Shown here: one piece after another, positions 32,998 through 49,647 of the stretch
Layout: every line of letters starts with the position of its first letter
How positions within the stretch are numbered: the first letter of the stretch is position 1
NCBI RefSeq assembly: GCF_002788215.1
Contig: NZ_CP024845.1
Coordinates: 1,364,001 to 1,428,000 of the forward strand
From: Halohasta litchfieldiae
GTDB lineage: Archaea; Halobacteriota; Halobacteria; Halobacteriales; Haloferacaceae
DNA: 64,000 nt
Direction: 5' to 3'
Translations under genes and position numbers: made by a program
Notes under the pieces: generated by a model
Told to the model about the DNA's origin: nothing
Seen by the model: only the letters and a program-made list of their open reading frames with translations
Database searches by the model: none

Positions 32998-33927
32998 CTA
33001 TATTTTTGAAACTGCCTCGATGATCTCCTGAGCAGTCGAACTAATTCGACCAAGGCGATCCTGGATCACCTCCGAATCCTCGTTCTCCCACGCCGCCAAG
33101 TAGAACGCAGAGCCACTCGTATCCAAGTCGAAAAATCGACCGACGATGTACGCGACGGCCTCGGCTTCGACCTCACGTTTTGCCCGCTCGGGTTCACTGT
33201 CGACATCGAAATGCAACAACGCATGAGCGTACTCGTGGATTAACGTAACAGCGAGGTCAGCCTGATTCGTTCGGGCTTTTGCTTCCACCACAGGGTGGAA
33301 CGAATGGATGCATCGGTACTTGCAGACGCCCATCGCATCTCCGTACTTCCACTCATCAGGCTCAATTATTCGAACGGTCACCCCGAGGTCTTCAGCCACC
33401 CCCGTGAGCTTCACCACGAGATCGCCAGCGTCCCCCGTCGCCGCAGTCTCCAACTCGGGAAGGGGCTCACCCTCCGTCTGAGAGACATCAAAGACAGTCG
33501 TAGGTCTGAACCCGACTAGCCCTTTCGACCACTCTCCTGGAGGCCTCTTGTCGTACTCACAGTCGATCTGGTCGTGGTAGCTGGGTGAATTCTTGCACTT
33601 CGGACAGCGCTTGGCGATGATCGGAGCCCAGATCCAGATCGCCTGTTCGCCCTTCTGGACGTGCCTATCGAAGTCGTTTCGCCAGGTGTGATAGCCGGCG
33701 ACTCTCGTTGCTTCGGGACACTGGAGTTTGATGAGCAGCGTATTTCGATGCGAGTAGTCATGGAAGCGACTCTGGACATCAAGCCACTCCTGGAATTCTT
33801 TGCTTTCCTGTGCATCATCGACGTGGTCGACGAGCTCGCCGATCCAGTGTTCAATCGTACTGTGCATCTCATCGTGTCGGGTATCGCTCTCCTCGAAGGA
33901 AACCGACGTCTCACTCTGTGTAGCCAT
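32998..33927 (-). CDS. ArdC-like protein: ssDNA-binding plus zincin domain
   Basis: About 309 aa from MATQSETSVS. The N-terminal part (EFQEWLDVQSRFHDYSHRNT, then GYHTWRNDFDRHVQKGEQAI) matches the ArdC N-terminal domain of plasmid anti-restriction proteins. A Cys insertion (CPKCKNSP) follows, then a metallopeptidase-like domain with HEYAHALLH (HExxH) and the third ligand in EAEAVAYIVG. Plasmids use ArdC to protect entering single-stranded DNA. Next to a DNA translocase gene, as expected for a transfer region. Confidence 0.82.
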   Translation of the reverse strand: MATQSETSVSFEESDTRHDEMHSTIEHWIGELVDHVDDAQESKEFQEWLDVQSRFHDYSHRNTLLIKLQCPEATRVAGYHTWRNDFDRHVQKGEQAIWIWAPIIAKRCPKCKNSPSYHDQIDCEYDKRPPGEWSKGLVGFRPTTVFDVSQTEGEPLPELETAATGDAGDLVVKLTGVAEDLGVTVRIIEPDEWKYGDAMGVCKYRCIHSFHPVVEAKARTNQADLAVTLIHEYAHALLHFDVDSEPERAKREVEAEAVAYIVGRFFDLDTSGSAFYLAAWENEDSEVIQDRLGRISSTAQEIIEAVSKI

Positions 33928-33997
33928 GATTTTCACACGACGAGTTCTGCTTCTTCAGAACGCGCCGCACCCCTTGGGGCGCGAAAAAACACTGCGG

Positions 33998-34396
33998 TTA
34001 GGCTGGTGGGAAGTAGACGCTCTGTTCACCAGCTAGCTCTTCGAGATGGTTCCGGTGTCGGTGCGCAAAATAACAGTCGTAACTGCAGTACCCACAGAGA
34101 TCCCCGGTATCGTACTCAGCCACGTAGGGTCCACGTTCGGTCGACCAGACGTTCATACTGCACTCAGAACACGCTGGGCACTCGATATCGCTCGGAGAGG
34201 TCCCACGATACGCATACTCGACACCGACATCCTGGAGCGTCGACTCGGGCCAGACGCCGTGTGCCTGCCAGAACTCTCGAACCTTCCCAAGACTGTGCCG
34301 TACGGTTTTCCGAACCGTCACGTGATCGGAATCACGACCACTGTCGTCCCAGCCACGATCGGTCCAGAACTCACCAAATTGAGCTCCTCGATGCAA
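33998..34396 (-). CDS. Zinc-ribbon-like hypothetical protein
   Basis: 132 aa with several Cys pairs: ECPACSEC, then LCGYCSYDCYFAHRHRNH. The front (WTDRGWDDSGRD, TVRKTVRHSLGKVREFW) looks like a short DNA-binding or adaptor segment. The only start is TTG at 34396; the in-frame sequence upstream (LDWNGLHRGAQF) looks coding up to a TGA, so the true N-terminus may be lost at the junction with the translocase gene. Confidence 0.55.
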   Translation of the reverse strand: MHRGAQFGEFWTDRGWDDSGRDSDHVTVRKTVRHSLGKVREFWQAHGVWPESTLQDVGVEYAYRGTSPSDIECPACSECSMNVWSTERGPYVAEYDTGDLCGYCSYDCYFAHRHRNHLEELAGEQSVYFPPA

Positions 34397-36004
34397 GCCG
34401 TTCCAGTCAAGAGTACATCCAGATCACACCATCACGGGAGGAAGTAAATTCTGAAACGGTCAACCACCAACTCTACGGCCTCCATGAATATGGTCGAGGA
34501 AGGAAACTCCCACTCGATATGGAACTCCATATTGAGAGTATCGAGGGAGTTTCCAACTTCGAGTTGATCATCTACAAACCAGCTGGAGAACCCCAATTCC
34601 AATTCCTCATCGGCCCTGGAGAAAGGGGAGACGCCAACTGTGACAAACTAGAGAGTACAACACGCTCCCAGTATCCAGACGGATACAAATTCGACCGCAA
34701 GCACTTCGATATAACCGATGTGTTCGATGACGTTCCACACATGGTTCGCTACGAAGGAATTGAAGAACGCCGTAAAGACTGGATGACTACCCTCACAACA
34801 TACGACACTGAGGAAACTGACCGCTCCCCAATCTCAAACCTGCTTGAAACAGTCATCCAAGACGACGGCGCAGTACTCTTCCAACTCATCTTCGAGCCAA
34901 GAAGTAACTGGGCAGCAAAGGCAGAAAGACAAAAAGGAATCCTCAAACAAGGTTGCCACACCCAAGGAGGACTCATTCTGCGTACTGTCATGGATGCTGT
35001 CCTAGGCGTATCCGACGAAGAAAAACAAGAACGCCACCGAGGAGAAACACCAGAAGACGTTGGTGGAACAATCCACGATTCACAGACTAGTGGCAGACGA
35101 TCTGGCACAAGTAGAATGGGTCAAATCGACCTGAAAGACCCATCTCACACTTACAATGTGAGTATGAGAATAGCAGCCGAAAACCAAGCTGTCGCAACCA
35201 ATGTCGAAGACTCTCTGAACAACCTCAGTGGTCAGTTCTACCAGATCGATGGGAACTACCTAGAACGGAACGAAAATGAATACAAGCGGATGCTGAACCA
35301 CGGGATCACCTACCCTAACGGATACGAGATGGTGTCCCGTCGCAAGCCGATCCTCGTCTGTAACATTAACGAGCTTGCCAACTTCATTACCGTTCCTTCA
35401 ATTGATTCCTTACCAAAAGCCAGCCGTGGTGGTACTGGTGGGATGCCCAAAGCTCAGTCCCCACTAACATCCCCTAATGAAGAGGTGTTCAAAGAGTTCA
35501 GTGGTGGCATGACAATCGGAAGAGCAGTAACAGAACTTCGAGATCAAGAGGGTGAAGACAAAGACGTAATCAGTGCAATCGAAAGCAAAAAAGAATGGTT
35601 CGACACCCTCTCTCGAAGGGATGCAATTGGACTCTCTGGACCAGATCTAAGACACCACTACCTACGAGCTGCAACAACTGGTAGTGGTAAGTCCGTCGCG
35701 ACTATGAACGACATGCTGACTTCATACAAGGACCTCAAAGGACCGACAATGCTGATCGATCCAAAGGGAGGTGATATGTGTGAAAACTATTTGCGTTGTC
35801 ACAGAACCCTGTTCGGTGATCTCGACGATGTGGAATACATGAAGATCCCTGAGAAAGATGGGATGATTCCCGGTATGCCGTTCTTCGATCTCCGACCATT
35901 GATCGAAGGTGCAGGCAGGACCAGAGAAACTGCTGTCCAAGACATCATCGATCACTACTTCCAGCTTCTCCGATTCGTCCTTGGAGAAGATACAGTACAA
36001 CAGA
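34397..36004 (+). pseudogene. DNA translocase ATPase (VirD4/FtsK-HerA type), truncated
   Basis: Coding begins near SRSSQEYIQITPSREEV (34400-34445) without a clear start codon; the first in-frame Met is at about 34519. The middle is unknown (DMELHIESIEGVSNFELIIY); the ATPase part starts HHYLRAATTGSGKSVATM (Walker A) and contains MLIDPKGGDM. The frame then breaks at an ISH11-like element after GEDTVQQ. The Walker B and C-terminal half are absent on the far side, so the gene is dead. Such ATPases pump DNA in haloarchaeal plasmid transfer or virus loci. Confidence 0.75.
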
Positions 36005-37072
36005 GGGTGTCATAGAAAGCGTCACACACGAAGACGCAGGATGTTGGAACTGTGTCTACGAGCGCCAGCATCCTGCAAGAGGAGACTTCTATCGACGAGT
36101 TCTTCAATGTAATGGCGACCGAGACGCTCGCGTTGTTCGAGCATCTTGAGTTCGACTTTCTCGAAGAATTCGATGTGTTCGCCCCCGCTCGCCGGGGGCG
36201 AACACGAGATCATCACCCACCAGCACTCTTCCGAGCGTTCCTGCACTGCTACTACAAGAACGTCTACGGCATCCGTCCAGTCACGCGAGAACTCCAGAAC
36301 ACGGTCGTCTGGCTCAGCTGTGGCTTCGATCGACCGCCGTCGAGAGACGCGGTCGATCGCTTCCTCACCGACCTCGAACACGTCGTCGACGAGGTCTTCG
36401 ACCGCCTCGTCGAGCAGGCCGCCTGCCGCGGCCTGCTCGACTTGACCTACTCCATCGATTCCACCGACGTGAGGACGATGCCCGCCGACCAAGACGCGTC
36501 GAAAGGCTACGATCCAACCGCCGAAGAGTACTACCACGGCTACGGCTGTACGATCGTCTCGACCGGGCAAAAGATCCCGATTGCCGCGGAGTTCACCGAG
36601 AGCAAGCAAGCGCCAGAGGAGACGGCGATGCGCGTCACGTGTGACGCGCTCGCCGTCGAGAAACCGATCTGGATGCTTGGAGACAGCGCCTACGACACGC
36701 TCGGCTGGCACGACCACCTGCTGGCCGCAGGGGTCGTGCCAGTCGCTCCGTACAACGCACGAAACACCGACGATCCGAAAGACATCGAGTACAGGGTCGA
36801 AGCCCGCATCGACGAACACAGCGAGGACGTTCAGCTGAAGCAATCGACGCTAGACGAGACGTACAACCGCCGGAGTGGAGTCGAACGAACCAACGACGCC
36901 GTCAAGGACTGCGGCCTCGGGCACGTTCGCGCCCGAGGCCGCGTCCACGCACGAGCACAAGTGTTCCTCGCGCTGTGCCTTCGTCTCGTTATTGCGATCA
37001 CCAACGACGAACGCGGAGACAATCCAGGAAGCACCGTCATCACGCTATGAGAACTATTCTATGACACCCTCT
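36003..37072 (+). mobile_element. IS5-family (ISH11-like) insertion sequence
   Basis: About 1070 bp with matching ends GAGGGTGTCATAGAA at 36003 and its complement ending at 37072. Length and transposase resemble ISH11. No clean target duplication: the flanks CAACA and ACAGTATT differ, and the translocase gene on the left has no continuation on the right, so a deletion accompanied or followed insertion. Confidence 0.8.
36052..37050 (+). CDS. Transposase, ISH11-like
   Basis: 332 aa from GTG 36052 (ATG 36112 is an alternative). DDE residues: YSIDSTDVRTMP (first Asp), MLGDSAYDTLGW (second Asp), RRSGVERTNDAVKD (Glu). Complete frame, probably functional. Family name given from overall resemblance; the sub-group is not certain. 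Confidence 0.85.
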   Translation: MSTSASILQEETSIDEFFNVMATETLALFEHLEFDFLEEFDVFAPARRGRTRDHHPPALFRAFLHCYYKNVYGIRPVTRELQNTVVWLSCGFDRPPSRDAVDRFLTDLEHVVDEVFDRLVEQAACRGLLDLTYSIDSTDVRTMPADQDASKGYDPTAEEYYHGYGCTIVSTGQKIPIAAEFTESKQAPEETAMRVTCDALAVEKPIWMLGDSAYDTLGWHDHLLAAGVVPVAPYNARNTDDPKDIEYRVEARIDEHSEDVQLKQSTLDETYNRRSGVERTNDAVKDCGLGHVRARGRVHARAQVFLALCLRLVIAITNDERGDNPGSTVITL

Positions 37073-37104: not shown

Positions 37105-38835
37105 TCATTTACCACCCAACAAGTCTTCTTCTCCGCTTGATTCACCGCCACCCATATCAGCGGTTTCTGAACGTGTCGGCTGTTGCTGAAGTTGTTGATG
37201 AGCCGTTCGCCATTTTTCAGTCGACGGGATACTGCCTGCGCCGTGCTCAGTATGTCGATTTCGAACTTGAATCAATACTGGAGTATTCATCGAATCCCCA
37301 GATACTACTGCTTGTCCAGGTGTTAACCCTGGCAACTCACGCAGAACATCTTCACCAGCGGCCTCAACGCTATTCTTAATGGCATCTTGATCAGTTGGGT
37401 TCTGGATCTTCATCGTCACTTGCGTACCGCACTGCGAAAGCACATCCTGATCGATTTTTGATGGCCGCTGGCTAATAATTCCGAGTCCGAATCCGAACTT
37501 TCGACCTTCAGACGTAATTGTCCGCATAATACCGAGAGATGGTGCATCTCCTGTCGCGGGTGCGAACCGGTGTCCTTCTTCGAATAACGAGAACAGAGGA
37601 AAATCAATGATTTCACCATCATAGTCAGGATCATCTCCGCGTTGACGGACTGCAGCTAGGCGGGCTTCGTACAACCGACGAAGGAGTACAGTGGCAATCA
37701 TTTGCTGGTCTCGTCGACCGAGTGTATCCATCTGCAAAACCGTACATCGACCAGGAGCCACCAATTCATTGAGCGCAACGTTTGCATCTCTTGTGAACAA
37801 GTCGTTGCGTTGGATCGAGCGCCGAAGGCGCCATTCTAATGCACCAACACTCGCATCGTCGTCATCATAACGATCCCGCATTGCATCCATTAATTCGTTG
37901 ACTCCCCACGTCCGGGAATCCGACTGCTGCATTGCACGCCATCCACCAGCAAGACGCTCTTGCATCCGATCACTAGGATCATCGAGTACAGCCATTACAT
38001 CATCAACACTGAGTTCTGAAATCCGGATTCGAAGATTTTCTGGATTAAAGTACTGTACTTCAGGCCGGTATCCGTCTTCACCCTCAAACACCTCCTCTCC
38101 TCGCATCTCGGATAGTGTATCGTACTCTCCATGTGGATCGAACACTAACAGTGATGCACGGATATCCGGCATCATCATTTCTTCCATGAGGACACCTGCG
38201 GTGTACGATTTACCGGACCCAGTGGAGGCAAGGATGGCTAAGTGTGTCGCAGCGAACTCGTCAATTGGTACATGCACGTTCACTGCATTGGTTTCACGGT
38301 TGAGTAACCATCCCATGTGAGCCAACCCATTACGCTCTGTCACGTCGACGGAACTCACATCAACCTCACCAGTGTTGGTAAGGGCGTCCTCACGACCAAT
38401 ACCGAGGTTCGGTAGAACAGCTTCTAACAGCGCATCAGAAGCGGTCCGGAGTTGCGTCCCTGGTCGTGGGAGCTGCCGAGGATTAGAGAACGTCTGCATC
38501 TGTGTGTCATAGAACCCGATTACGGTGGCTTCGAGACGGTAGAGGTCGATATCATCCGTGGGAACACCGAGAGTCCCAGCGACTGTTTCTGGAGCAATAC
38601 TCGGGTCTGCCATGAACGTTTCAGGAAGCCCTCTTGCTTGCTCTCGGTTCGTAACCCGGGCAAGTACATCTTGAGCAGTTCCCTCCACAGTAATTGAGTA
38701 GGTTATGAACTCACCAGTCTTTACAGCTTGCTCATCAGGGGTAACAATGAAGAACTCATTTGGTCCGTCTCCAGGAGCGGCAACAGTCCCGACAAGAGCC
38801 TCATCAGCCGACGTGGAATTTTGTGGAGGACTCAT
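37105..38835 (-). CDS. herA: HerA-family DNA translocase
   Basis: 576-aa hexameric ATPase that drives DNA-end processing with NurA. An N-terminal HAS-like beta region (AAPGDGPNEFFIVTP, GEFITYSITV) is followed by the motor: LAILASTGSGKSYTAGV (Walker A, about residue 205), LLVFDPHGEYD, FPLFSLFEEGHRFAPA (Walker B with DE replaced by EE) and the HerA signature GLGIISQRPSKIDQDVLSQC. The acidic, Gln-rich tail is disordered. Last gene of the argonaute operon, overlapping the previous gene by ATGA. Confidence 0.93.
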   Translation of the reverse strand: MSPPQNSTSADEALVGTVAAPGDGPNEFFIVTPDEQAVKTGEFITYSITVEGTAQDVLARVTNREQARGLPETFMADPSIAPETVAGTLGVPTDDIDLYRLEATVIGFYDTQMQTFSNPRQLPRPGTQLRTASDALLEAVLPNLGIGREDALTNTGEVDVSSVDVTERNGLAHMGWLLNRETNAVNVHVPIDEFAATHLAILASTGSGKSYTAGVLMEEMMMPDIRASLLVFDPHGEYDTLSEMRGEEVFEGEDGYRPEVQYFNPENLRIRISELSVDDVMAVLDDPSDRMQERLAGGWRAMQQSDSRTWGVNELMDAMRDRYDDDDASVGALEWRLRRSIQRNDLFTRDANVALNELVAPGRCTVLQMDTLGRRDQQMIATVLLRRLYEARLAAVRQRGDDPDYDGEIIDFPLFSLFEEGHRFAPATGDAPSLGIMRTITSEGRKFGFGLGIISQRPSKIDQDVLSQCGTQVTMKIQNPTDQDAIKNSVEAAGEDVLRELPGLTPGQAVVSGDSMNTPVLIQVRNRHTEHGAGSIPSTEKWRTAHQQLQQQPTRSETADMGGGESSGEEDLLGGK

Positions 38836-39500
38836 CGCATCACCCCTCTATCGACTGACGACTGCCAACGAACGTCTTTCTCGATGATATCAAGTAATCG
38901 TTGGTGTTCTTCAGCAGGGAATAACTGGCTGAGACGCTCAACCAATGTGAGCGTTACTTCCGCACCAAGTGGACCTGCAACGTCGAGTAGCCGTTCCATA
39001 TACGCGAGTTGGATTCCGCCATCAGTAGTTGTGTGAAACGCACGAATCACGCCATCTGGACATCGTTCGACGATATCTTCGACAGCAAGAGTCCAGCGGG
39101 GCATCTGATGATCTGGTTCCTCAATTGTACCGCCATCTGTGATTTTTGCAGTGCCAAGGAGTGCGACACCCGCGAGCTTTGTCCGCTCTTCGACGTACCC
39201 TGGTGTGAACTGTGGTTGGTCTTGCTGAGCGAGACGCGGACCCGACCGGCCCTGATCAGGATCAACAAGTCGAGTATCGTAAATGACGCCCATTACGATG
39301 TACTCCGTCTCCTGAATCGTTTTCTTAATAAACACGGGCTGGCCGAACCCACATTCATCCGGCGCAGGCGCTCGCTCCCGGTCGGTCTTGTTGTAAATCT
39401 CGACCGTGTAATCCAGATGGCTGTTTGAACTGATGATACTTCCAATGGCGAGACAATCGTCAACCCGCTCGGTTTGGTTGCTTGATGATGTGTTACTCAT
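38832..39500 (-). CDS. HAS-barrel-like HerA partner
   Basis: 222 aa preceding herA with ATGA overlap at both ends. It begins with a beta-rich domain (CLAIGSIISSNSHLDYTVEI, PVFIKKTIQETEYIVMGVIY) resembling the HAS-barrel found at the N-terminus of HerA and ATP synthases, then helical residues (LLDVAGPLGAEVTLTLVERL, LLDIIEKDVRW). It may dock NurA or Argonaute onto the HerA ring. Domain assignment is by pattern and position. Confidence 0.6.
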   Translation of the reverse strand: MSNTSSSNQTERVDDCLAIGSIISSNSHLDYTVEIYNKTDRERAPAPDECGFGQPVFIKKTIQETEYIVMGVIYDTRLVDPDQGRSGPRLAQQDQPQFTPGYVEERTKLAGVALLGTAKITDGGTIEEPDHQMPRWTLAVEDIVERCPDGVIRAFHTTTDGGIQLAYMERLLDVAGPLGAEVTLTLVERLSQLFPAEEHQRLLDIIEKDVRWQSSVDRGVMR

Positions 39501-39667
39501 AAGGTTCGGTAAGGTGTGGAGGTGACGGTTCCATGACCGTAATCAAGTTCTGATTCGTTCTTCGATGCACGAAGGGGAGACACGATGATTTCATTGAGAC
39601 TACGAGCAGACAGGTCTCCACACGGATCTGAATCGATCCCAGTTGAGCCGTGTATGGATAGCTTCAT
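39497..39667 (-). CDS. 56-aa protein between nurA and the HAS gene
   Basis: MKLSIHGSTGIDSDPCGDLS ... SLNEIIVSPLRASKNESELD ... YRTL. Its ATG overlaps the nurA stop by ATGA (39664-39667) and its TGA overlaps the next ATG the same way (39497-39500). Two exact 4-nt couplings on a tiny frame are strong evidence that it is translated. No known domain. It may be a structural peptide or regulator of the HerA-NurA complex. Confidence 0.7.
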   Translation of the reverse strand: MKLSIHGSTGIDSDPCGDLSARSLNEIIVSPLRASKNESELDYGHGTVTSTPYRTL

Positions 39668-40935
39668 CGACGACGCAGCTCCTTGCTGAGTGCTTTTGCA
39701 TCCCATTCCAGTGGGATGTCATTTTCCTCTGCCCATCCCTGAAGTAGGCGAAGAAACTGTTGCCGGTCACGCTGATCAAGAACAGCGTCAGTATCTGCTT
39801 GCTGAAGTATCTCCGGATACCCTCGACCGACCCCGGCTTCAGCACGCACCGCATCCAATGTGTATTCGTACAAACTCTCGTATCCAGATGGAGCGTCTGC
39901 ATCCAGTAACCACCCTGGGAACTCCAATCGATCAAGACCCGCACCAGGCGGGACTTTCAGGTACGAAAAATAAATCTCATTGGCGAAGTCATACTTCACA
40001 CCACGGTACGTCGTCGTGAGAGCGTCGACACTTCCATCACGACGGCACAGGAATGGTACGGTCGAATCACCCCATGGACTCATCATCCCGGCCAACACGC
40101 GGGCATCAGGAATCGTTCGGTCGGCCCCGAACTCGTCTTGGAGGAGTAACCGCGTCATTTTCGCTAATTCCACGGCATTCGTCCCAGCCACATAGCCGAC
40201 TAGCGGTATTTGATGGTGTTGACTCGCTGCAATGAGTTGACTGATAGACGCAAGGTACCGATCTCGGACTGCCGGACGTTCTGGGTTGGCAAACGATACG
40301 ATAAGCGGCCCATCATAGAGAACGACTGGTCGACGCTCCAGTGTACTATTTTTATACTGCTCTGCTAAGTCTTCGATTTTGTCGACCAGCAAGTTTGCCT
40401 CGTGTTCATATCGTTCAAGCCCGACTAGCGAGCCATCAACGAATCGGTACTCGTCACCGCCAGCCTCGCCACCTGACCGAGTGACTTCCATCGGACCAAG
40501 CAGCTTCCCTTTCCTGTCTCGTTCAAGTTTTCCTTCTGGTGAATGATGATTCAAACACCAAGCCGCTTGCACGTACGCCAACGGAATATTGAACTGCTTC
40601 GTCGGCGGAATCTCAGACCCATCAACAGCAAGCATCGGCACATCCATCAGGAGCTTCCGAGCCCAATCGTTAACGGCCTCATGAGTCTCCCACTCATCTG
40701 ATTCGTCGTGACGAATTATGAGTGAGTCTGCACTGTCAAGTGCCTCAGTTGGAAGCGCACCAGGATAGGAGGCCGTCGACAGTGCACGCCGAATCTCGCT
40801 GGCACCGATTTCAGGAAGTCGACGGAAAGCATTCTGATACCGTTCAACCAGGTCATCATCATCCTCTAAGTATGACTTGATCGTCTCAACGTTATCATCG
40901 AGTGCCGTTGCAACTTCCAGCTTATCGAACGGCAT
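39664..40935 (-). CDS. nurA: NurA nuclease
   Basis: 423-aa 5'-3' nuclease of the RNase H-like NurA family, which works with HerA and Mre11-Rad50 in DNA-end resection. The catalytic DGS motif is LAVDGSEIPP near residue 102; the second acidic strand is VVLYDGPLIV and the C-terminal acidic positions include GWLLDADAPSGYES. Start overlaps the rad50 stop as TAATG. Longer than thermophilic NurA (about 340 aa) because of acidic insertions. Confidence 0.88.
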   Translation of the reverse strand: MPFDKLEVATALDDNVETIKSYLEDDDDLVERYQNAFRRLPEIGASEIRRALSTASYPGALPTEALDSADSLIIRHDESDEWETHEAVNDWARKLLMDVPMLAVDGSEIPPTKQFNIPLAYVQAAWCLNHHSPEGKLERDRKGKLLGPMEVTRSGGEAGGDEYRFVDGSLVGLERYEHEANLLVDKIEDLAEQYKNSTLERRPVVLYDGPLIVSFANPERPAVRDRYLASISQLIAASQHHQIPLVGYVAGTNAVELAKMTRLLLQDEFGADRTIPDARVLAGMMSPWGDSTVPFLCRRDGSVDALTTTYRGVKYDFANEIYFSYLKVPPGAGLDRLEFPGWLLDADAPSGYESLYEYTLDAVRAEAGVGRGYPEILQQADTDAVLDQRDRQQFLRLLQGWAEENDIPLEWDAKALSKELRRR

Positions 40936-43646
40936 TAGTCACTCATCACTTCCGAGGTCTGGCTGGTTTTCTCGATAGTGATGCTGTAATCAGTCATCGA
41001 ATCAAATGTCGAATCGTGGCTGATGACTGTGAGTTGCTCGAACGCATCGAGTCTGTTGAGTTGCCCGACAAGGTTCGCTTTCTTATCTTGATCGAGGTTT
41101 GCGGTCGGCTCATCAAGGAACGCAATTCCGAGACCAGAGATCTGTTCCAGTATAGCCAGTCGAACCGCTAGCGCAGCAGCCATCTTTTCACCGCCTGACA
41201 GCGTCGAGAACGATTTCTGAACATCAGCATCAGTAACGACGATATCATAGTCGGATGTCCATTCGAGCTGTTCGGCTTTTTCGCCCCGAATTGACCGGAA
41301 GATAGCATCTGCTCGTTTCCCGATACGATCTGTGATGACATTCCGCATTTTCGGTCCCGCAGCACGGACGTTATCGCGCACCCATGAAGCGAATTTCTGG
41401 TCGGCAGCAAGTTCACGCAGCCGTTCAAACTCTTGTTTTCTCTCCTCTAACTTGCCTTCTAATTTCTCAACCGTCGCAGAAACGTTCTCAAGTGTTTTCT
41501 CTTTCTCCGACCGTTGACCCGAGAGCGTGTTGATCTGCTTGTTGTAATCCGCAATCTGCTCACCGAGCGTCTCATACTCGTCAGTGTCAAACGCTTCATT
41601 CTCAGCCTCTAGCTTGTCAGAGAGGTCTTCACCCTCGTCGTTGAGCGACTCAAGTGTCTCCTCAATCTCCGCTACGGCTGCTTGGCGTTCCTCCAGCTTT
41701 TCAGCAGCCTGTTTATTCCGTTCAAACTGTTGGTAGGCCTCTTCGGTTTCACTGAGCGTTTCTTTTACTGCTTCAAGCTCGTCTTCGACATCACCGAACT
41801 CATCAATCTCTTCGTCTAACCGTTCGATTTCTGCGTCTACAGACTCAATCGACTCTTCGACTTCACCAAGTTCACTCGGCGCATCAGCGTACTCATCGAC
41901 TTGGGCCTTCGCTGTGTAGTACGCATCATTCGCATCTTCAAGCGAATCACGCTCTTCTTGCAATCCTGGTAATTCATCAATTGCTTCTCTGAGCGAGACT
42001 ATTCGTTCCCGAGTCTCATTTCGCTCCCCGTTGAGTTCACGAAGGTCATCCTGTAACTCAGAGACTTGGTTCCGACGCATATCAAGCTTCGAAACTCGCT
42101 TTTCGACCTTTTCAGCCTCGGACAACTCTGCCTCTAATTCCGAGATCTCCTGAGCAAGAGCTTCTTGTTGACTCTGTATCTCTTCGATTCGGGCTTCACG
42201 CTCTTCGATGAGATCTGTGCGATGATCTGCCTTCAGCGATTTTCCACAGGTCGGACACGGAGCGTCTACTTCCGCATCTTCAAGCTGCTCAAGTTTCTCC
42301 TTCAGATCGGTTTCTTCCGCATTCAACGATGCAATTTCTGCTTTTATTTCGCCAATTTCCTCACGCAGGTCAGCTGCATCAACAACCTTCGCTGCCTCAG
42401 CCTCAACCTCCTCAATAATTTCAACTTCTTCACGAAGCTCGGTGAGTGTGTCTCTTGCATCAGAATCAAGATCTGAAATCTCACCTTCCAACCGCTCGAC
42501 AGTCTTTTGATCAGCTTCTAATTCAGAAATACGGTCTTCAAGTTCCTCATAGCGGTCCTTTTGAGCCTCGTACTCTTCGAGATTCTCTCGAGCCACCTCG
42601 TGTTTTTTAACCTGCTCTTCGAGTGCTTCTTGCCGGATTTCGAGCTTCCCGAGTTCCGCTTCTTGTTCCTGTTGTTCCGTCCGTAATTTCTCTAACTCAT
42701 CGATCTGTTCCTCAAGTGCTTCCTGCTGAGCCTTCGCATCACGATACTCTTCGTACCCTTCACGAGCCTCTTCGCACTTCCTTTCGGCCTCTCGCGCAGT
42801 TTTGAGCTCAGTTTCTGCTACTTCGAGAGCCGACTCTTTCGCCTCAATCGCTTGTTCGTTCTGCTCGATATCTCCTTCAATCTCTGCAATTCGACCTTCG
42901 ATAGCCTCCAACTCCTCGTATCTGTCTTCGGCCTTTGTAAGCTCGGCTTCTGCTGAAGAAATTTCCGCTGACAACTCGTCAATTTCCGCTTCTAATCGTG
43001 CTCTGTCTTCTCGTTCCTCAGGGAGACTCTGCACTTCCCCCGTGAGCTCACGGATCTCCTCTCGCACCTGTCCGCGTTCGGCTTTAATTTGATCTGGAAC
43101 TCCTTTTAGAGTGCTCCAAGACTCCTCATACGCGTCAATATTCAGTAGCTCATCAAACGTTGACTTCCGTGCTGCCGGTCGCTGTGCGAAATCAGAGAGA
43201 AACCGTGTTTGAGGCACCCCGATACACGACTCCCACAGATTCCCCAACTCATCGCTATCCTTCAGATCAAACCTCGCACAAAGCCACTTCATCAACGCTT
43301 TCTTCGAATCGATATCCTGATCGATCCACTCATCGCGCTCGCCATCATACCGCGCAACACCGTATTTCGAATACCCGGCAGACCGAGTTACACGGTACCT
43401 CTGTAATCCGTCTGCTTCATCCAGTTCGATCGTGACCTCCACAGTCCCTGAAGATGCGCCTTCCCGAACAAACTCCTTATTATTGAACGGAAGCGAATCA
43501 AAAAGCGCAAACCCAATTGCCTCCTGAATCGTCGACTTCCCAGACCCGTTCTTACCGAGAATCGCAGTCACACCCCCACGAAGCGAAATCGTTGTTCTAT
43601 CCTCGTACGACTTGATATTCTCTAATGTAACATCGATAATCTTCAT
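40935..43646 (-). CDS. rad50: Rad50 ATPase
   Basis: 903-aa SMC-like ATPase. Walker A GKNGSGKS at residues 31-38; a long antiparallel coiled coil follows; the zinc-hook CPTC (about residue 461) lies at its apex; the signature LSGGEKMAAALAVRLAI (about residue 815) and Walker B LGIAFLDEPTANLD (about residue 838) close the head. It bridges DNA ends and gates the Mre11 nuclease. Coupled by ATGA to mre11 and by TAATG to nurA. Confidence 0.95.
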   Translation of the reverse strand: MKIIDVTLENIKSYEDRTTISLRGGVTAILGKNGSGKSTIQEAIGFALFDSLPFNNKEFVREGASSGTVEVTIELDEADGLQRYRVTRSAGYSKYGVARYDGERDEWIDQDIDSKKALMKWLCARFDLKDSDELGNLWESCIGVPQTRFLSDFAQRPAARKSTFDELLNIDAYEESWSTLKGVPDQIKAERGQVREEIRELTGEVQSLPEEREDRARLEAEIDELSAEISSAEAELTKAEDRYEELEAIEGRIAEIEGDIEQNEQAIEAKESALEVAETELKTAREAERKCEEAREGYEEYRDAKAQQEALEEQIDELEKLRTEQQEQEAELGKLEIRQEALEEQVKKHEVARENLEEYEAQKDRYEELEDRISELEADQKTVERLEGEISDLDSDARDTLTELREEVEIIEEVEAEAAKVVDAADLREEIGEIKAEIASLNAEETDLKEKLEQLEDAEVDAPCPTCGKSLKADHRTDLIEEREARIEEIQSQQEALAQEISELEAELSEAEKVEKRVSKLDMRRNQVSELQDDLRELNGERNETRERIVSLREAIDELPGLQEERDSLEDANDAYYTAKAQVDEYADAPSELGEVEESIESVDAEIERLDEEIDEFGDVEDELEAVKETLSETEEAYQQFERNKQAAEKLEERQAAVAEIEETLESLNDEGEDLSDKLEAENEAFDTDEYETLGEQIADYNKQINTLSGQRSEKEKTLENVSATVEKLEGKLEERKQEFERLRELAADQKFASWVRDNVRAAGPKMRNVITDRIGKRADAIFRSIRGEKAEQLEWTSDYDIVVTDADVQKSFSTLSGGEKMAAALAVRLAILEQISGLGIAFLDEPTANLDQDKKANLVGQLNRLDAFEQLTVISHDSTFDSMTDYSITIEKTSQTSEVMSD

Positions 43647-45133
43647 TCGCTATCACCCTCAACCACAGCAGCGTCCCGGTCAGCACCACCAGTCTCAGCT
43701 TCCTCCTCAGCGTTCCCGAAGGGGTCCTCTTCAACATCCAGCACTACACCATCAGCGGCCTCTGGGAACAGGTCTCGGCGACTGCTTGAAACAACATCAA
43801 CGATATCGTCTGTGTTCTCTCCGTCCTGTGCCATGCGGTGCGCGTCACCGAGAAGCGTCGCCACCGACTCAGACTGCTCACTGTATTCAGATTCAGTCGC
43901 AATCGTTTCGAAAACCCGTTTTTCAAGCGCTGCAGTCTGCAGCCGACCGTTAATGAACACCTCATCATCATCAAGATCAGCGAGCAGCTCCTGGATCTCT
44001 GCGGTTGTCACACGACTCGTGTTCGTTTGTACGTATAACGCATTACACGCTGTTCCAGCTTGTTCAGCGAGTTCGTCAACTCGGAAACTACCTCTGTCAA
44101 ACTGAAGCGTTCCAACGAACCGAAGATCAAGAAGTGGCTCACGATGATCACTCCCTAACAGGAACTCTTCTCGCCCCAACATCTCTCGAAGAGAAGCTTG
44201 TTGCTCCTCAATGTGTTCACCGAACGCTGTTTCGAGTTCACCTGCCGAATCAAATGGTGTCACATCAAGCTCAATAGTGAAGAATGGGCGTCGTCGAGAT
44301 GAGTTGTGGACAACGTCGTGAGCAAGTTGGCCGGGACCCTCATACTCATCGTCTGCCTGACTCAGCTCCACATTGTAGTAGCCATGCTCCCAGTCATCAC
44401 GTGCTTCTGCCGTGGAGTGGGCCTCGGGTGATCCTGGATTGAAAATCCAGCCACTGGCGTCGTAACACTTGTGAATGTGACCCAACGCTAAGTAATCCAC
44501 TTCTTGTCGTACCTCTCGTAGTTCCGCGTGCGTCACGTTCCCTCCGAGTGCAGGTACCTCGTCCTCGATACCGAAGTGACCCAATAGAACCGTGTATTCA
44601 GCCTGACCGTACTCCTCTGCAGTTCTTTGAATACCGGTAGCGATTTGTTCAAGCGCAGTATCTGTTCGAGCTCCGCGCCATTGCAATCCGAATACACGAA
44701 CCGTCCCATCCGGTGTTTCTATATCATAGAACCCTGAGTCGTCTCCCGGATCTTCGGCGTCGTATTGTTCGAACCTAGCAGCTTCAGACTCACTCTCTAG
44801 ATCCGCTTCCAGTAATACGATGTGTCCCCGGCGGTGGAGATAGTTTAGCCACGTCACTTCACGCGGCGTCAAGTTCTCGTCGTGATTACCCCGAGAAACG
44901 AGAACCGGAACATCGTCAGGAACGACGTTAAGTCCCTTCTCAGCAGCTTCCAACACTTTCGGGCGAAGATCACGCGAGTGAAACAGATCACCAGGCAGGA
45001 CGATCGCATCAGGGTCATCCTGCATGATAAGCTGTAACGTCGCTTCGAACGTGTTCATCATATCATCTTCTCGCTGCTTCAGTCCGTATTGCCGATGTCC
45101 AAGATGGATGTCTGCAAGATGTGCAAATTTCAT
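43643..45133 (-). CDS. mre11: Mre11 nuclease
   Basis: 496 aa from MKFAHLADIHLGHRQYG; the longer frame to 45235 would overlap the PIWI gene in another frame. Phosphoesterase motifs: ADIHLG (metal ligands), VLPGDLFHSRD, SRGNHDENL, LLGHFGIED and LALGHIHKCYDASGW. Full Mre11 core plus an extended C-terminal Rad50-binding part and acidic tail. Endo- and exonuclease acting at DNA ends. Starts 22 nt after the PIWI stop, so it is co-transcribed with argonaute. Confidence 0.94.
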   Translation of the reverse strand: MKFAHLADIHLGHRQYGLKQREDDMMNTFEATLQLIMQDDPDAIVLPGDLFHSRDLRPKVLEAAEKGLNVVPDDVPVLVSRGNHDENLTPREVTWLNYLHRRGHIVLLEADLESESEAARFEQYDAEDPGDDSGFYDIETPDGTVRVFGLQWRGARTDTALEQIATGIQRTAEEYGQAEYTVLLGHFGIEDEVPALGGNVTHAELREVRQEVDYLALGHIHKCYDASGWIFNPGSPEAHSTAEARDDWEHGYYNVELSQADDEYEGPGQLAHDVVHNSSRRRPFFTIELDVTPFDSAGELETAFGEHIEEQQASLREMLGREEFLLGSDHREPLLDLRFVGTLQFDRGSFRVDELAEQAGTACNALYVQTNTSRVTTAEIQELLADLDDDEVFINGRLQTAALEKRVFETIATESEYSEQSESVATLLGDAHRMAQDGENTDDIVDVVSSSRRDLFPEAADGVVLDVEEDPFGNAEEEAETGGADRDAAVVEGDSE

Positions 45134-45155
45134 TTGTTCTGTCCTTGTAATGTGT

Positions 45156-45944
45156 TTAGACGTATGGAACTCCTCTGATAAGTTCCCCGTTAATAAGATA
45201 CCCTTCACGTGCAGACTCAGCGCATTTGTCCGCATAATACGTCGTTATCGGCAGTCGAGTGCTCCCCTGATCACTTCCGATGTGGCTTTCGCTGAGCCAG
45301 TACACTTGTTCTAAGAGCGTTTGCATCGGAGTGTCACCAGCCCGTCGAACAACGCGAAGAGCTCGTGGAGTTCCCAACCCGTCGCTCTCGTCAAATTCTG
45401 GTCGACCAGTAGTCGTAAGGAAACCAAATTCATCATTCTGAGCGATGAACAGTTGTCCTTTGTGATCAATCTGGAAATCCCCGTTTTGGAGTATTGCTGC
45501 GCGTGGAGCACCGCTTTTTCGAACATCTACAATATCGATTTCAATCCCTATCTCATCGAAGGGTTCTACAATGGTATCGACATCTTCGAATACACGTCCA
45601 TCACGGTGAATGACAATGTTACTCGGTGAGTCACCTTCTGCTCGAACAAATTCTCTGTTCACGTCTTTGAGGATATCAATGATTGCGTCCTCATCAAACG
45701 TTTCTCCAGACTGGAGTGACTGTGTTTTTGAAACGAATACTGTCCCGTCCGCCAAAACCACGTTCGCACTCGCTCCGAGGAACTGACCTGTTTTCGGATC
45801 ACGCGTCGCATCTAACCCCACGAAGCAATCCACCTCACCAGGCATCTCATCGACACGCCATGGAATCCCTCCAGCACCTGCAACCAGTCCAAGTGCAGTA
45901 TTACGAACCGCCCATTTGTTGTCGAGATTATCCTCTCGAATCAT
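45156..45944 (-). CDS. ago: Argonaute, PIWI-domain part
   Basis: 262 aa in the same frame as the upstream Argonaute ORF, separated from it only by TAA; its ATG is the very next codon. PIWI catalytic tetrad is intact: Asp45 (GLDATRD), Glu81 (QSGETFDE), Asp115 (VIHRDGR) and Asp239 (YYADKC). KWAVRNTALGLVAGAGGIPW and the C-terminal GYL...VPYV are conserved with NgAgo. Two readings: expression as a separate chain by stop-start reinitiation, or the dead end of a nonsense-mutated gene. Confidence 0.93.
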   Translation of the reverse strand: MIREDNLDNKWAVRNTALGLVAGAGGIPWRVDEMPGEVDCFVGLDATRDPKTGQFLGASANVVLADGTVFVSKTQSLQSGETFDEDAIIDILKDVNREFVRAEGDSPSNIVIHRDGRVFEDVDTIVEPFDEIGIEIDIVDVRKSGAPRAAILQNGDFQIDHKGQLFIAQNDEFGFLTTTGRPEFDESDGLGTPRALRVVRRAGDTPMQTLLEQVYWLSESHIGSDQGSTRLPITTYYADKCAESAREGYLINGELIRGVPYV

Positions 45945-47678
45945 TTACGATGGGATCGCCTGCTTCCCAAGTGCCTTTTTGAATTCCGCGTATGGATCGT
46001 CGATATCACCATTCCGAATGCGTGTATCGTTTGGTGAAGGCACGACCGCTAGCACGGCATCAACATCATCGATCATCGCCACTGAATTACTGTAGTTTAC
46101 CGCACTACCGAGTTCATACTCTGTGTACGATGTTTCGTCTGGCTCACAACCCCAAGATCTGAGCTGTTTTTCCAACCGGTCACGAAGCTGCTTGAACTGG
46201 TCAGCGCAACACTCAGGTACAAGATACTGTATTTTGAAAGACGACGGGCGGCTATGTGCTCCGTACTTTCGTAGTCCTGTAGATGGAAGGCTTGTTGTCT
46301 GATTATCTCTGAATCTGAGATTGTTCGACCGGTCAACTGTCGAAGACATGAACGAGAGACTCGGTCCGACTGGTGTCGAGGTGATCCGAGAATCGATCCC
46401 CGAAAGAGGATCTAAATCATCGACGAACTCGATTGCTTTTCGAAACCTTTCATCAGGGAGCATCTTCGCAGCACGATCCCACTTCCTGTGGAACTCTGGA
46501 GCCAGTTTTTTTACTACCTCTTTTTTCGGAGACACTCGGAGGAGATCCGGGACATGGATATCTGTATTATCGTTATGCGGATTGTACTGAATCTCAATTA
46601 ATTGTGGATTCTTCGATCTGAGCTGTTCAGAGAGTTCATCGGAAATTCGGCCCTGTTGTTCATACCAGTCAGCAAGCGACTGACCTCCAAAATCAGGAAT
46701 TGGGTCGGTGTATCGCTTGTCAGCGAAGCCTTTGAGTGTTCCACTGCCAGGCTTCGAATATGTTTCTGGATCATGTTCAACATGTGTGCCAACCAGTTCG
46801 TCTACGGTCGCGTTTATTTGCTCAATGTACTCGTCGACAGTAACTCGACTTCGTGCATGATGGCTGAGTTCGATTCCAGCAAACCCATCACCAGATGGAA
46901 ACAGATCAAGACGAACACTGTAGGAGAGACACGCTTCGAAGAGACCATCAGGCCCTTTGATAACCGGTTGCTTGGTGTGAATACGATCCACACGTCCGGT
47001 TTCATAAACATCGTCATCGACTGTCTTCTTCACTAACTGTTGGAGCAACCGAACGATTTGCTCGTTATCGGATTTATCATCAGCGTATAGAGTGGTCCGT
47101 GTCTCATCTGTGAGAGTGAATGGATCTGGAAGGTCAACAGACATCGGGTCCGTTGTAATAATAGACATCGCCCCCACAACCGAGACACCAGCACCACTGC
47201 ACGCGCGGAGATACCCTGCAAGGCGGTACGTCTCATTCATAGGATCATCGTCAAAGACGGCCGTTGCCTCAATACTGTACTGATATACTTTCAATTCCTC
47301 AAAACTCCGATCAAACTCAAACAGCGACAAATACGGTACGCCATCATCAAGAGAGTCTAATAGTGTGGGTGAATTTGTCTGATCATCGCTTGTCGGAGCT
47401 TCGATTGGTTCAGCATCGAGCTGGTATGATCCGTTCAGGCTTTTTTTATTCTTGAACTCGTTTCCTTTTGCGTTCGTGAGTTCGTACCAGCGACCTTCTT
47501 CCCACGCAAAATCGCTCAATGCATTGTTTTTCCAGAGAGCAAGAGGGAACTCATTACCAGCCGTATCACAGACTTTGAGTCGATTAGCCATTTTGTCTGT
47601 CGTACAACTCAGTTTGGAGAGTACCTGAACTCGGATATCGATTTTTTCGCCGTCTTCGATGTCAGCCTGGGTAACCAT
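45945..47678 (-). CDS. ago: Argonaute, OB/N/PAZ/MID part, ends at in-frame TAA
   Basis: 577 aa of a long haloarchaeal (NgAgo-like) Argonaute, a guide-directed nuclease. Residues 1-95 form an OB-like, RPA-type domain (ALWKNNALSDFAWEEGRWYE) as reported at the NgAgo N-terminus. The N, PAZ-like and linker region runs to about 400, then MID. The MID pocket begins YAEFKK (Tyr563, Lys567); the stop follows AIPS, where NgAgo reads YSQ. CAA (Gln) to TAA is a single-base change. With the PIWI ORF the total is 840 residues, near the usual 850-890. First gene of the operon. Confidence 0.92.
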   Translation of the reverse strand: MVTQADIEDGEKIDIRVQVLSKLSCTTDKMANRLKVCDTAGNEFPLALWKNNALSDFAWEEGRWYELTNAKGNEFKNKKSLNGSYQLDAEPIEAPTSDDQTNSPTLLDSLDDGVPYLSLFEFDRSFEELKVYQYSIEATAVFDDDPMNETYRLAGYLRACSGAGVSVVGAMSIITTDPMSVDLPDPFTLTDETRTTLYADDKSDNEQIVRLLQQLVKKTVDDDVYETGRVDRIHTKQPVIKGPDGLFEACLSYSVRLDLFPSGDGFAGIELSHHARSRVTVDEYIEQINATVDELVGTHVEHDPETYSKPGSGTLKGFADKRYTDPIPDFGGQSLADWYEQQGRISDELSEQLRSKNPQLIEIQYNPHNDNTDIHVPDLLRVSPKKEVVKKLAPEFHRKWDRAAKMLPDERFRKAIEFVDDLDPLSGIDSRITSTPVGPSLSFMSSTVDRSNNLRFRDNQTTSLPSTGLRKYGAHSRPSSFKIQYLVPECCADQFKQLRDRLEKQLRSWGCEPDETSYTEYELGSAVNYSNSVAMIDDVDAVLAVVPSPNDTRIRNGDIDDPYAEFKKALGKQAIPS

Positions 47679-47967: not shown

Positions 47968-49647
47968 ATGTCTGAAACCGAGCGCTCGCAGAATTTTATT
48001 ACTGATGCTAAGCATCATAACGGGTGGTGGAGCGATGAGACCTCACAAAGCCTATCACGAGCGGTAGCTCTCACACCCCGATCCGATTTTTATAATATAT
48101 TCAAAATAACCAGCAATAAACGCGAAGATGGTGCTGAGAATCTCACTTATTCGATCTTTGGACAAACAGGGATCGGAAAAACAACGTTACTTCATCAACT
48201 CATAGCAGCTCTACTCAATACCGTAGACTTCCCCGACAACAATCAAAATATTAGTCTCGAATCCTCAGTCTCTCCTCGCCAAGTCCTCTACGTCCCTTTA
48301 GAAGACTCACTCTACCATTTAGAACACCCCGACAAAGGCATCAAACCTCTTGAAAAAGTCATTGACTACTTCAAAACACACGTTGCGCCCCGACAAGGTC
48401 CTAAATTCATTTTCATAGATGATGTCAACGCACTAAATATCACCGAGGACAAGAAATCAGCACTTCTCGATATTGTCGACAACGAGACCTACCTATTCTT
48501 AACCGGTATCGTAGCAAAACAAACCACACTCTCTGGATTATCGGGAGCAGACAAAATCGACGAGATAATCGGACCAATACCAATACTCCCGATGAAATTC
48601 GTTGATGCAATCAAAACAGAAGGCGTACTAGGGACCGAATTTGATGCTGATTTTGGCACACAAATTGAATCATACCAGTCTACGGGATTGCCAGGAAATT
48701 CACCTATCAAAACTATTCGAGATGGGCTCAAACTATCAAATTCAGAAACAAGCATAGAAACAGCTGTTGAAACTCTGGACGAGCTACACTTCGGTATACT
48801 TGACTCAACAGTACGAGACAACCTCCATGACGCAGCACGTGATTACTTACGACAAAACGGAGCTCTTCACCACAATCATGACGCTACAGTCAGGAATGAA
48901 CTCGCCAAATCTCATTTCCTACTTTTCCTATATAAAGAACTCTCAAAGTACGCGTCAATACAAAACCCCGAAAACCTACACCGAATTAGTTCAATCGCAG
49001 CCAGTCATGCTGGTGAGGAAATTCAATACACAAAAATCAGTGATCAAATAGGGGTTGACAGGCGAACAGTCGATAGCTACCTCAATGTCCTCGATGAAGG
49101 AATCGCAGTTACAGAATCCCACGACTTTTCACTCAGACGATACCGTCGAACTCGCTTGTATCTCCGTAATCCGCGACATCTCGTACTGCTCTCACAACGA
49201 CAAGAACACTACGGATTTGAAGACTATGCCCAACAGAACGTTCTCAACCACGAATTCGAATACAAACTCGCCCGTACCGTCGCCTTCGACCACGCAAAAC
49301 GACTCGCCTACTATGTCGAGGCTTACGACGTCGAATACACCGAAACAGACACTGGCCTCATCGACTACATCTTACACCAAAACGGACAGGTACTGCCATT
49401 CATCTTTTCTTATCACCCACACACCGATGCCCCAGAACAAATCGCAACAGAATTCGATCCCAACGTAGGCCAACACACAAAAAGAGACAGCGAGGAGTTA
49501 CAAGAATTCAATTACGAAGCACCGTACCGATTCATAATCACAGACAGTCTCCCACAGAGTGCCACAGAGAACCAATCACTATACGTCGAACGAGGAGAAA
49601 TCAATTTGTGCTACCTTCCGTACTGGCTGTTCCTACTCATCAGTTAA
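47968..49647 (+). CDS. AAA ATPase, DUF4143-like
   Basis: 559 aa. P-loop SIFGQTGIGKTTLLHQL (about residues 70-85), then KFIFIDDVNAL (Walker B) and LFLTGIVAK (sensor). A winged-helix-like part (YTKISDQIGVDRRTVDSYLN) and a C-terminal domain with EYKLARTVAFDH and an acid-rich YYVEAYDVEYTE stretch fit ATPases with a DUF4143/PD-D/ExK-like end. Stand-alone ATPases of this kind occur in plasmids and defence islands. Codons are AT-richer than the operon opposite. Divergent from argonaute. Confidence 0.7.
   Translation: MSETERSQNFITDAKHHNGWWSDETSQSLSRAVALTPRSDFYNIFKITSNKREDGAENLTYSIFGQTGIGKTTLLHQLIAALLNTVDFPDNNQNISLESSVSPRQVLYVPLEDSLYHLEHPDKGIKPLEKVIDYFKTHVAPRQGPKFIFIDDVNALNITEDKKSALLDIVDNETYLFLTGIVAKQTTLSGLSGADKIDEIIGPIPILPMKFVDAIKTEGVLGTEFDADFGTQIESYQSTGLPGNSPIKTIRDGLKLSNSETSIETAVETLDELHFGILDSTVRDNLHDAARDYLRQNGALHHNHDATVRNELAKSHFLLFLYKELSKYASIQNPENLHRISSIAASHAGEEIQYTKISDQIGVDRRTVDSYLNVLDEGIAVTESHDFSLRRYRRTRLYLRNPRHLVLLSQRQEHYGFEDYAQQNVLNHEFEYKLARTVAFDHAKRLAYYVEAYDVEYTETDTGLIDYILHQNGQVLPFIFSYHPHTDAPEQIATEFDPNVGQHTKRDSEELQEFNYEAPYRFIITDSLPQSATENQSLYVERGEINLCYLPYWLFLLIS

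Follow-up and report, generated by a model that had tools for sequence, protein, structure and literature searches.

The stretch of DNA analysed here, hereafter the window, covers 64,000 nucleotides (positions 1364001-1428000) of the one-contig, 3.33 Mb genome of Halohasta litchfieldiae, and carries a row of eight minus-strand open reading frames (ORFs): an Argonaute gene in two ORFs, followed by mre11, rad50, nurA, a micro-ORF of 56 amino acids (aa), HAS, and herA. We read this locus, with a probability of about 60%, as a mobile defence-island operon whose accessory end-processing cassette (mre11 to herA) most likely degrades invader DNA from its ends and has repeatedly been joined by an Argonaute, which would supply guided cuts and take its guides from the degradation products.

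The gene row and its interrupted Argonaute

A first-pass annotation of this DNA had described the eight minus-strand ORFs, their ATGA and TAATG junctions, and a 22-nt gap behind the Argonaute gene, and the coordinates agree with that description throughout. ATGA overlaps join mre11 to rad50 (43643-43646), nurA to the micro-ORF (39664-39667), the micro-ORF to HAS (39497-39500), and HAS to herA (38832-38835); rad50 and nurA meet in TAATG at 40935, and 22 nt lie between the PIWI stop (45156) and the mre11 ATG (45133). The tight coupling from mre11 to herA, by 4-nt or 1-nt overlaps, supports reading these genes as one unit. Pfam recognises Piwi (3e-11), Metallophos (9e-16), the Rad50 zinc hook (1e-5), NurA (4e-24), and the HerA central domain (3e-34). 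HAS has no Pfam match, and its top Foldseek matches are all HerA (E 4.5e-4), from a weak model (pLDDT 65, TM 0.36). For Rad50, Pfam matches to viral coiled-coil families were set aside as low complexity, and the PADLOC matches LmuB, mad3, and PbeC as generic to SMC-like ATPases.

A single frame of 840 codons holds both Argonaute ORFs, which are parted only by an in-frame TAA. The encoded architecture is that of a long-A Argonaute, N-PAZ-MID-PIWI with a DEDX tetrad (PADLOC pAgo 6e-297, Pfam Piwi, CbAgo-like fold), the closest solved structure is CbAgo, and the catalytic residues D623, E659, D693, and D817 (840-residue read-through numbering) are all conserved. The frame is broken, however, in the MID domain: TAA replaces residue 578, which is glutamine in all 51 other aligned haloarchaeal Argonautes and part of the motif Y563-K567-Q578, which we take to be the pocket that binds the 5'-phosphate of the guide. 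A nonsense mutation that arose recently would explain this most simply, although the TAA may be a sequencing error. Because the nonsense codon falls on this invariant guide-binding glutamine, the Argonaute is probably inactive in this strain.

A naturally split Argonaute, with one subunit of 577 aa and one of 262 aa produced by termination-reinitiation at TAAATG or by read-through, would fit the ATG directly after the stop, the otherwise intact frame, and the position of all four catalytic residues on the second piece. Yet the break lies on strand 577-581 within the MID core of the predicted structure rather than at a domain border, it costs the invariant glutamine, and a stop at position 578 was absent in every other haloarchaeal Argonaute examined. 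Moreover, methionine after Q578 is common in relatives (Q-M), and the ATG is therefore not a newly evolved start. We consider a split enzyme very unlikely. The age of the presumed nonsense mutation is beyond the reach of dN/dS, as dS between the Argonautes is saturated, and an IMG/VR search with the Argonaute found no relative, hence no viral carrier and no second isolate in which to compare the stop. Elsewhere, the Halopenitus persicus Argonaute is frameshifted and that of genome G289 is in fragments. Damaged Argonautes with seemingly intact neighbours, noted at three other loci than the window's, suggest that Argonaute loss is frequent.

The surroundings read as a mobile island. GC content in the window is 0.51 against about 0.61, with values of 0.56-0.62 in most genome samples away from it, and the window holds a Cdc6/Orc1-type initiator gene, an ArdC-like (anti-restriction-like) gene, and an insertion sequence that ends 32 bp past the herA stop and marks the downstream end of the gene row (Table 1). 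A plasmid megablast with the cassette gave no match. The exonuclease and MrfA-like helicase genes on the other side of the Argonaute form a pair that is 65-82% identical across unrelated loci (the window and six others); in some genomes the pair follows the Argonaute, and in the window it is divergent to it.

Table 1. Features of the window, with positions counted from its first letter
Feature	Position	Strand	Remarks
ORF with ATPase-like C-terminal part	33661..36015	+	no Pfam match; truncated by the insertion sequence
Insertion sequence	36002..37072	+	DDE transposase 36052-37050; exact 16-bp terminal inverted repeats 36002-36017 / 37057-37072
herA translocase/helicase (576 aa)	37105..38835	-	Pfam HerA central domain
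HAS protein (222 aa)	38832..39500	-	weak model resembles HerA chains in fold search
Micro-ORF (56 aa)	39497..39667	-	bridges nurA and HAS, ATGA overlap at each end
nurA nuclease (423 aa)	39664..40935	-	Pfam NurA
rad50, accessory (903 aa)	40935..43646	-	Walker A and CPTC zinc hook
mre11, accessory (496 aa)	43643..45133	-	phosphodiesterase motifs readable in sequence
Argonaute ORF 2 (262 aa)	45156..45944	-	last MID strand and helix, then PIWI
Argonaute ORF 1 (577 aa)	45945..47678	-	OB-like N-terminal part, then N, PAZ, and the larger part of MID; in-frame TAA at 45945-45947 closes the ORF
AAA/DUF4143 ATPase	47968..49647	+	divergently oriented, as is often seen beside haloarchaeal Argonaute genes
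RNase H-like exonuclease with helix-hairpin-helix	49801..51321	+	forms a pair with the MrfA-type helicase gene at several loci of Argonaute
DEAD helicase with MrfA zinc-binding domain	51324..54050	+	next to RNase H-like exonuclease gene

The accessory cassette and its micro-ORF

The same genome holds a second mre11-rad50 pair at 923425-927290, whose products are only 31% and 28% identical to the operon copies. In NCBIfam, the operon copies score higher on Pyrococcus/Sulfolobus models than on haloarchaeal ones (Mre11, 78 bits with the Pyrococcus model vs. 50 with haloarchaeal Mre11; Rad50, 241 with the best archaeal model vs. 135 with the haloarchaeal model). Judged by these sequence comparisons, the cassette is clearly of thermophile type, dedicated, and distinct from the chromosomal Mre11-Rad50, and the earlier supposition that its mre11-rad50 genes are dedicated copies is borne out. 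Among 391 haloarchaeal genomes, 389 have some Mre11, about 42 have the accessory Mre11 (E below 1e-60), and 40 match the NurA query. Nearly all readable cassettes (40 fetched, where the contig allows) have their genes in the order mre11-rad50-nurA-HAS-herA. The cassette thus has the four genes and domain signatures of the archaeal Mre11-Rad50-NurA-HerA operon in one operon-like array, and is no core housekeeping copy, given the separate chromosomal pair and its presence in about 10% of genomes.

The accessory nurA is not to be equated with a near-ubiquitous NurA-like protein, for which the query (Pfam NurA 2e-7) finds a match of about 30% identity in all but eight of the 391 genomes (383); extra accessory NurA-like copies occur in about 45 genomes. 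Papers have described halophiles as lacking nurA or as having no apparent copy.

The micro-ORF between nurA and HAS recurs. Within the window's wider clade, 23 of the 27 cassettes with a nurA-HAS gap hold one micro-ORF of 21-58 codons that overlaps each of the two genes by 4 nt, where shuffles predict about 3.5 such gaps (relatedness uncorrected). Its length and sequence vary and the double ATGA overlap is kept (the window, and loci L115-L139 and L037); a G-x-V-x-S-T ending is common to the micro-ORFs of the window clade, and the others share no sequence. The 56-aa ORF is therefore no accident, and a role as a translational relay is the likelier explanation.

Might the operon serve the repair or replication of its island or host, rather than defence? 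One such role would be chromosome decatenation, which has reportedly been proposed for TtAgo. In thermophilic archaea, the genes for Mre11-Rad50 and HerA-NurA are textbook examples of repair genes, and the Argonautes SeAgo and LrAgo aid E. coli under gyrase inhibition in a manner dependent on RecBCD/RecA (PMC10269773). Repair is nonetheless an improbable purpose for a cassette that is accessory, patchy, and additional to the chromosomal Mre11-Rad50. Furthermore, the closest orthologues of the window's Argonaute (53-71% identical) are often plasmid-borne, and the one in Natrinema pellirubrum is a defence protein: with AgaP, a PLD nuclease that is toxic alone and restrained by Argonaute, it makes up the APAP system, which clears plasmids and suppresses a virus (PMC11442185).

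Argonautes and end-processing machines across haloarchaea

We examined 48 haloarchaeal Argonaute loci with sufficient flank, counting neighbours within the fetched 10 kb or so. Mre11-Rad50 lies beside 16 of these Argonautes, with seven changes on the Argonaute tree, and UvrD/PD-(D/E)XK (AddAB-like) machines beside 18, with six changes (a quick tree, with long branches flagged). Altogether, about 34 of the 48 loci hold an end-processing machine from one of several unrelated families: the cassette described above (type 1); a second type, Mre11-Rad50-NurA-like-HerA; AddAB-like pairs; AgaP followed by PD-(D/E)XK and UvrD-PD-(D/E)XK proteins; or a large helicase with Mre11-Rad50. The AddA/AddB-like UvrD and PD-(D/E)XK genes adjoin Argonautes in varying orientation (five loci), and in a deep clade the Argonaute gene is directly preceded by one for a DUF2797 protein, which often overlaps it (14 loci).

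Some of these loci are single rows. Genome G140 has the unidirectional order Ago>AgaP>mre11>rad50>nurA>HAS>herA, G241 has a contiguous rad50>nurA-like>herA>AgaP>Ago, and Halorubrum sp. Hd13 has mre11>rad50>nurA-like>herA>DUF2797>Ago, the latter two each in one direction with overlapping or near-contiguous genes. In Halobellus inordinatus, Halopiger djelfimassiliensis, and Natrinema hispanicum, the Argonaute is divergent to the same cassette. Argonaute, often together with AgaP, has thus been paired repeatedly and independently with such or equivalent machines in haloarchaea, and the synteny whose absence from all relatives would, by the first-pass annotation, have spoken against the link is found beside intact Argonautes in several separate lineages. 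Among 17 bacterial Argonaute loci, searched with the same (haloarchaeal) models and including several short contigs, there was one weak Rad50-like match only. This match (L247, 7546-8568) lies directly upstream of the Paenibacillus puerhi Argonaute.

The pairing might still reflect neighbours rather than partners, that is, separate defence systems of the same mobile islands, juxtaposed by recombination around shared neighbours such as AgaP. The low-GC setting with its insertion sequence, replication initiator, and anti-restriction-like gene would fit such an origin, as would the roughly 35 of 41 cassettes, and the majority of accessory NurA-like copies and F64 modules, that have no adjoining Argonaute. 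However, in the 10 genomes with both a type-1 cassette and an Argonaute, six pairs lie within 5 kb, against 0.06 expected under uniform placement. These pairs fall into three Argonaute lineages, and when only the lineages are counted P is about 3e-5; with a tenfold higher density in islands it rises to about 0.02. The partners are nearly always DNA-end processors, although they come from unrelated families, and some loci are one overlapping or near-contiguous gene row. Mere neighbourhood therefore seems to us rather unlikely, if to be taken seriously. Co-occurrence at the genome level is weak (10 seen vs. 5.5, P 0.03). The proximity of Argonaute and cassette is well supported; an obligate partnership is not.

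AgaP may be what connects the two. The cassettes closest to that of the window (G304, G222, G148, G333, and G134) all lack an Argonaute, and in G222, G333, and G134 an AgaP-like gene occupies its place. Nine loci have AgaP-like PLD genes beside the cassette, several of them without Argonaute. Because such genes stand beside cassettes without any Argonaute, AgaP is not solely an Argonaute partner. The AgaP-headed cassettes of G222, G333, and G134, together with the full row of G140, suggest that AgaP was the hinge that brought Argonaute and cassette together, and we infer that the window locus lost AgaP later. In the window, AgaP gave no hidden Markov model match, and one AgaP query gave no match in the genome; PADLOC contains no model for AgaP or for the mre11-herA cassette. 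Loss of AgaP would make loss of the Argonaute harmless, yet G289 keeps AgaP beside its Argonaute fragments.

Proposed mechanism and comparison with known systems

Where they lie side by side, Argonaute and cassette may also be functionally coupled. An intact Argonaute would use its guides to nick or break plasmid or viral DNA, Mre11-Rad50 would open the ends, and HerA-NurA would shred the duplex; the degradation fragments could become new guides, which would close a positive loop resembling the one between CbAgo and RecBCD. The cassette of this strain probably works now without Argonaute, because of the nonsense codon in the guide-binding MID pocket.

Several observations weigh against this reading. 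The Argonaute of this strain is broken. More generally, Argonaute is missing from the neighbourhood of most type-1 cassettes, accessory NurA-like copies, and F64 modules, and the closest orthologues of the window's Argonaute adjoin AgaP, AAA/DUF4143 ATPase, or AddAB-like genes and lack the Mre11-Rad50-NurA-HAS-HerA cassette. The cassette is hence a module in its own right, which Argonaute joins in some genomes, and not a machine that always includes Argonaute. In AgaP-headed cassettes, the gap upstream of mre11 is 135-223 nt, and because of this loose junction mre11-herA may have its own promoter. Finally, the clustering of defence genes in islands has causes besides cooperation. The earlier proposal of an operon that couples guide-directed cleavage with end resection is accordingly upheld in part: the dedicated cassette and the recurrent pairing with Argonaute favour it, whereas the Argonaute here is broken and most cassettes have none, and a working guide-directed machine in this strain is doubtful.

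Argonaute, MRN, HerA-NurA, and APAP are already known; of the described systems that the locus resembles, APAP comes closest, and CbAgo-RecBCD is its analogue in function. The APAP Argonaute of N. pellirubrum (PMC11442185) is a 69% identical long-A orthologue of the same clade with the DEDX tetrad, and has the same AAA/DUF4143 gene nearby; the window differs in having the cassette in place of an adjacent AgaP, and a stop-interrupted Argonaute. Thermophilic archaea likewise have the four core genes in one operon, mre11-rad50-nurA-herA (Constantinesco 2002, 2004, as cited in PMC7776575). Compared with the operon as described there, the window's is accessory and mobile, stands beside a core haloarchaeal Mre11-Rad50, and has a separate HAS, a micro-ORF, and the link to AgaP/Argonaute. 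In E. coli, RecBCD shapes the guide DNAs of prokaryotic Argonautes (PMC10269773), and with CbAgo (PMC10269773, PMC9040764) an end-processing helicase-nuclease likewise shapes the guide pool; there, however, the host supplies the partner enzyme from a gene elsewhere, whereas the window's machine is encoded beside the Argonaute. HerA-NurA of T. kodakarensis cuts both duplex strands, and an antiviral role has been proposed for it (PMC12977600). The SIR2-HerA and DUF4297-HerA antiphage complexes also combine HerA with a nuclease in defence, and the low-confidence HAS model matches their HerA chains, but the companions of HerA in the window are NurA and Mre11-Rad50, the arrangement known from the repair operon of archaea.

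UvrD helicase and PD-(D/E)XK proteins have already been noted in operons of prokaryotic Argonautes, and Mre11, Rad50, and HerA do not occur in the main text of that survey (Ryazansky 2018, PMC6299218). What appears to be new is the link to Mre11-Rad50-NurA-HerA and, more broadly, the recurrence of interchangeable end-processing machines next to the Argonautes of haloarchaea; neither was found in the literature searched, although many subscription papers lie outside the scope of that search and priority is not certain.

For the biology of haloarchaea, NurA-HerA emerges as a widespread accessory module, despite being described as absent or not apparent there. A broader view, which we hold tentatively and at somewhat less than even odds, is that haloarchaeal Argonautes are a class of guided defence systems that carry an exchangeable end-processing machine, with AgaP as a shared adaptor, and that the window's Argonaute was recently lost. 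If true, guide production and target shredding would be encoded together, by Mre11-Rad50-NurA-HerA or AddAB-like genes. On the question of how DNA-guided Argonautes get their guides and finish invader DNA, the genomes themselves indicate the partner here, whereas the bacterial link to RecBCD came from experiment, with the partner encoded elsewhere; and in tractable haloarchaea the question could be tested by simple deletions.

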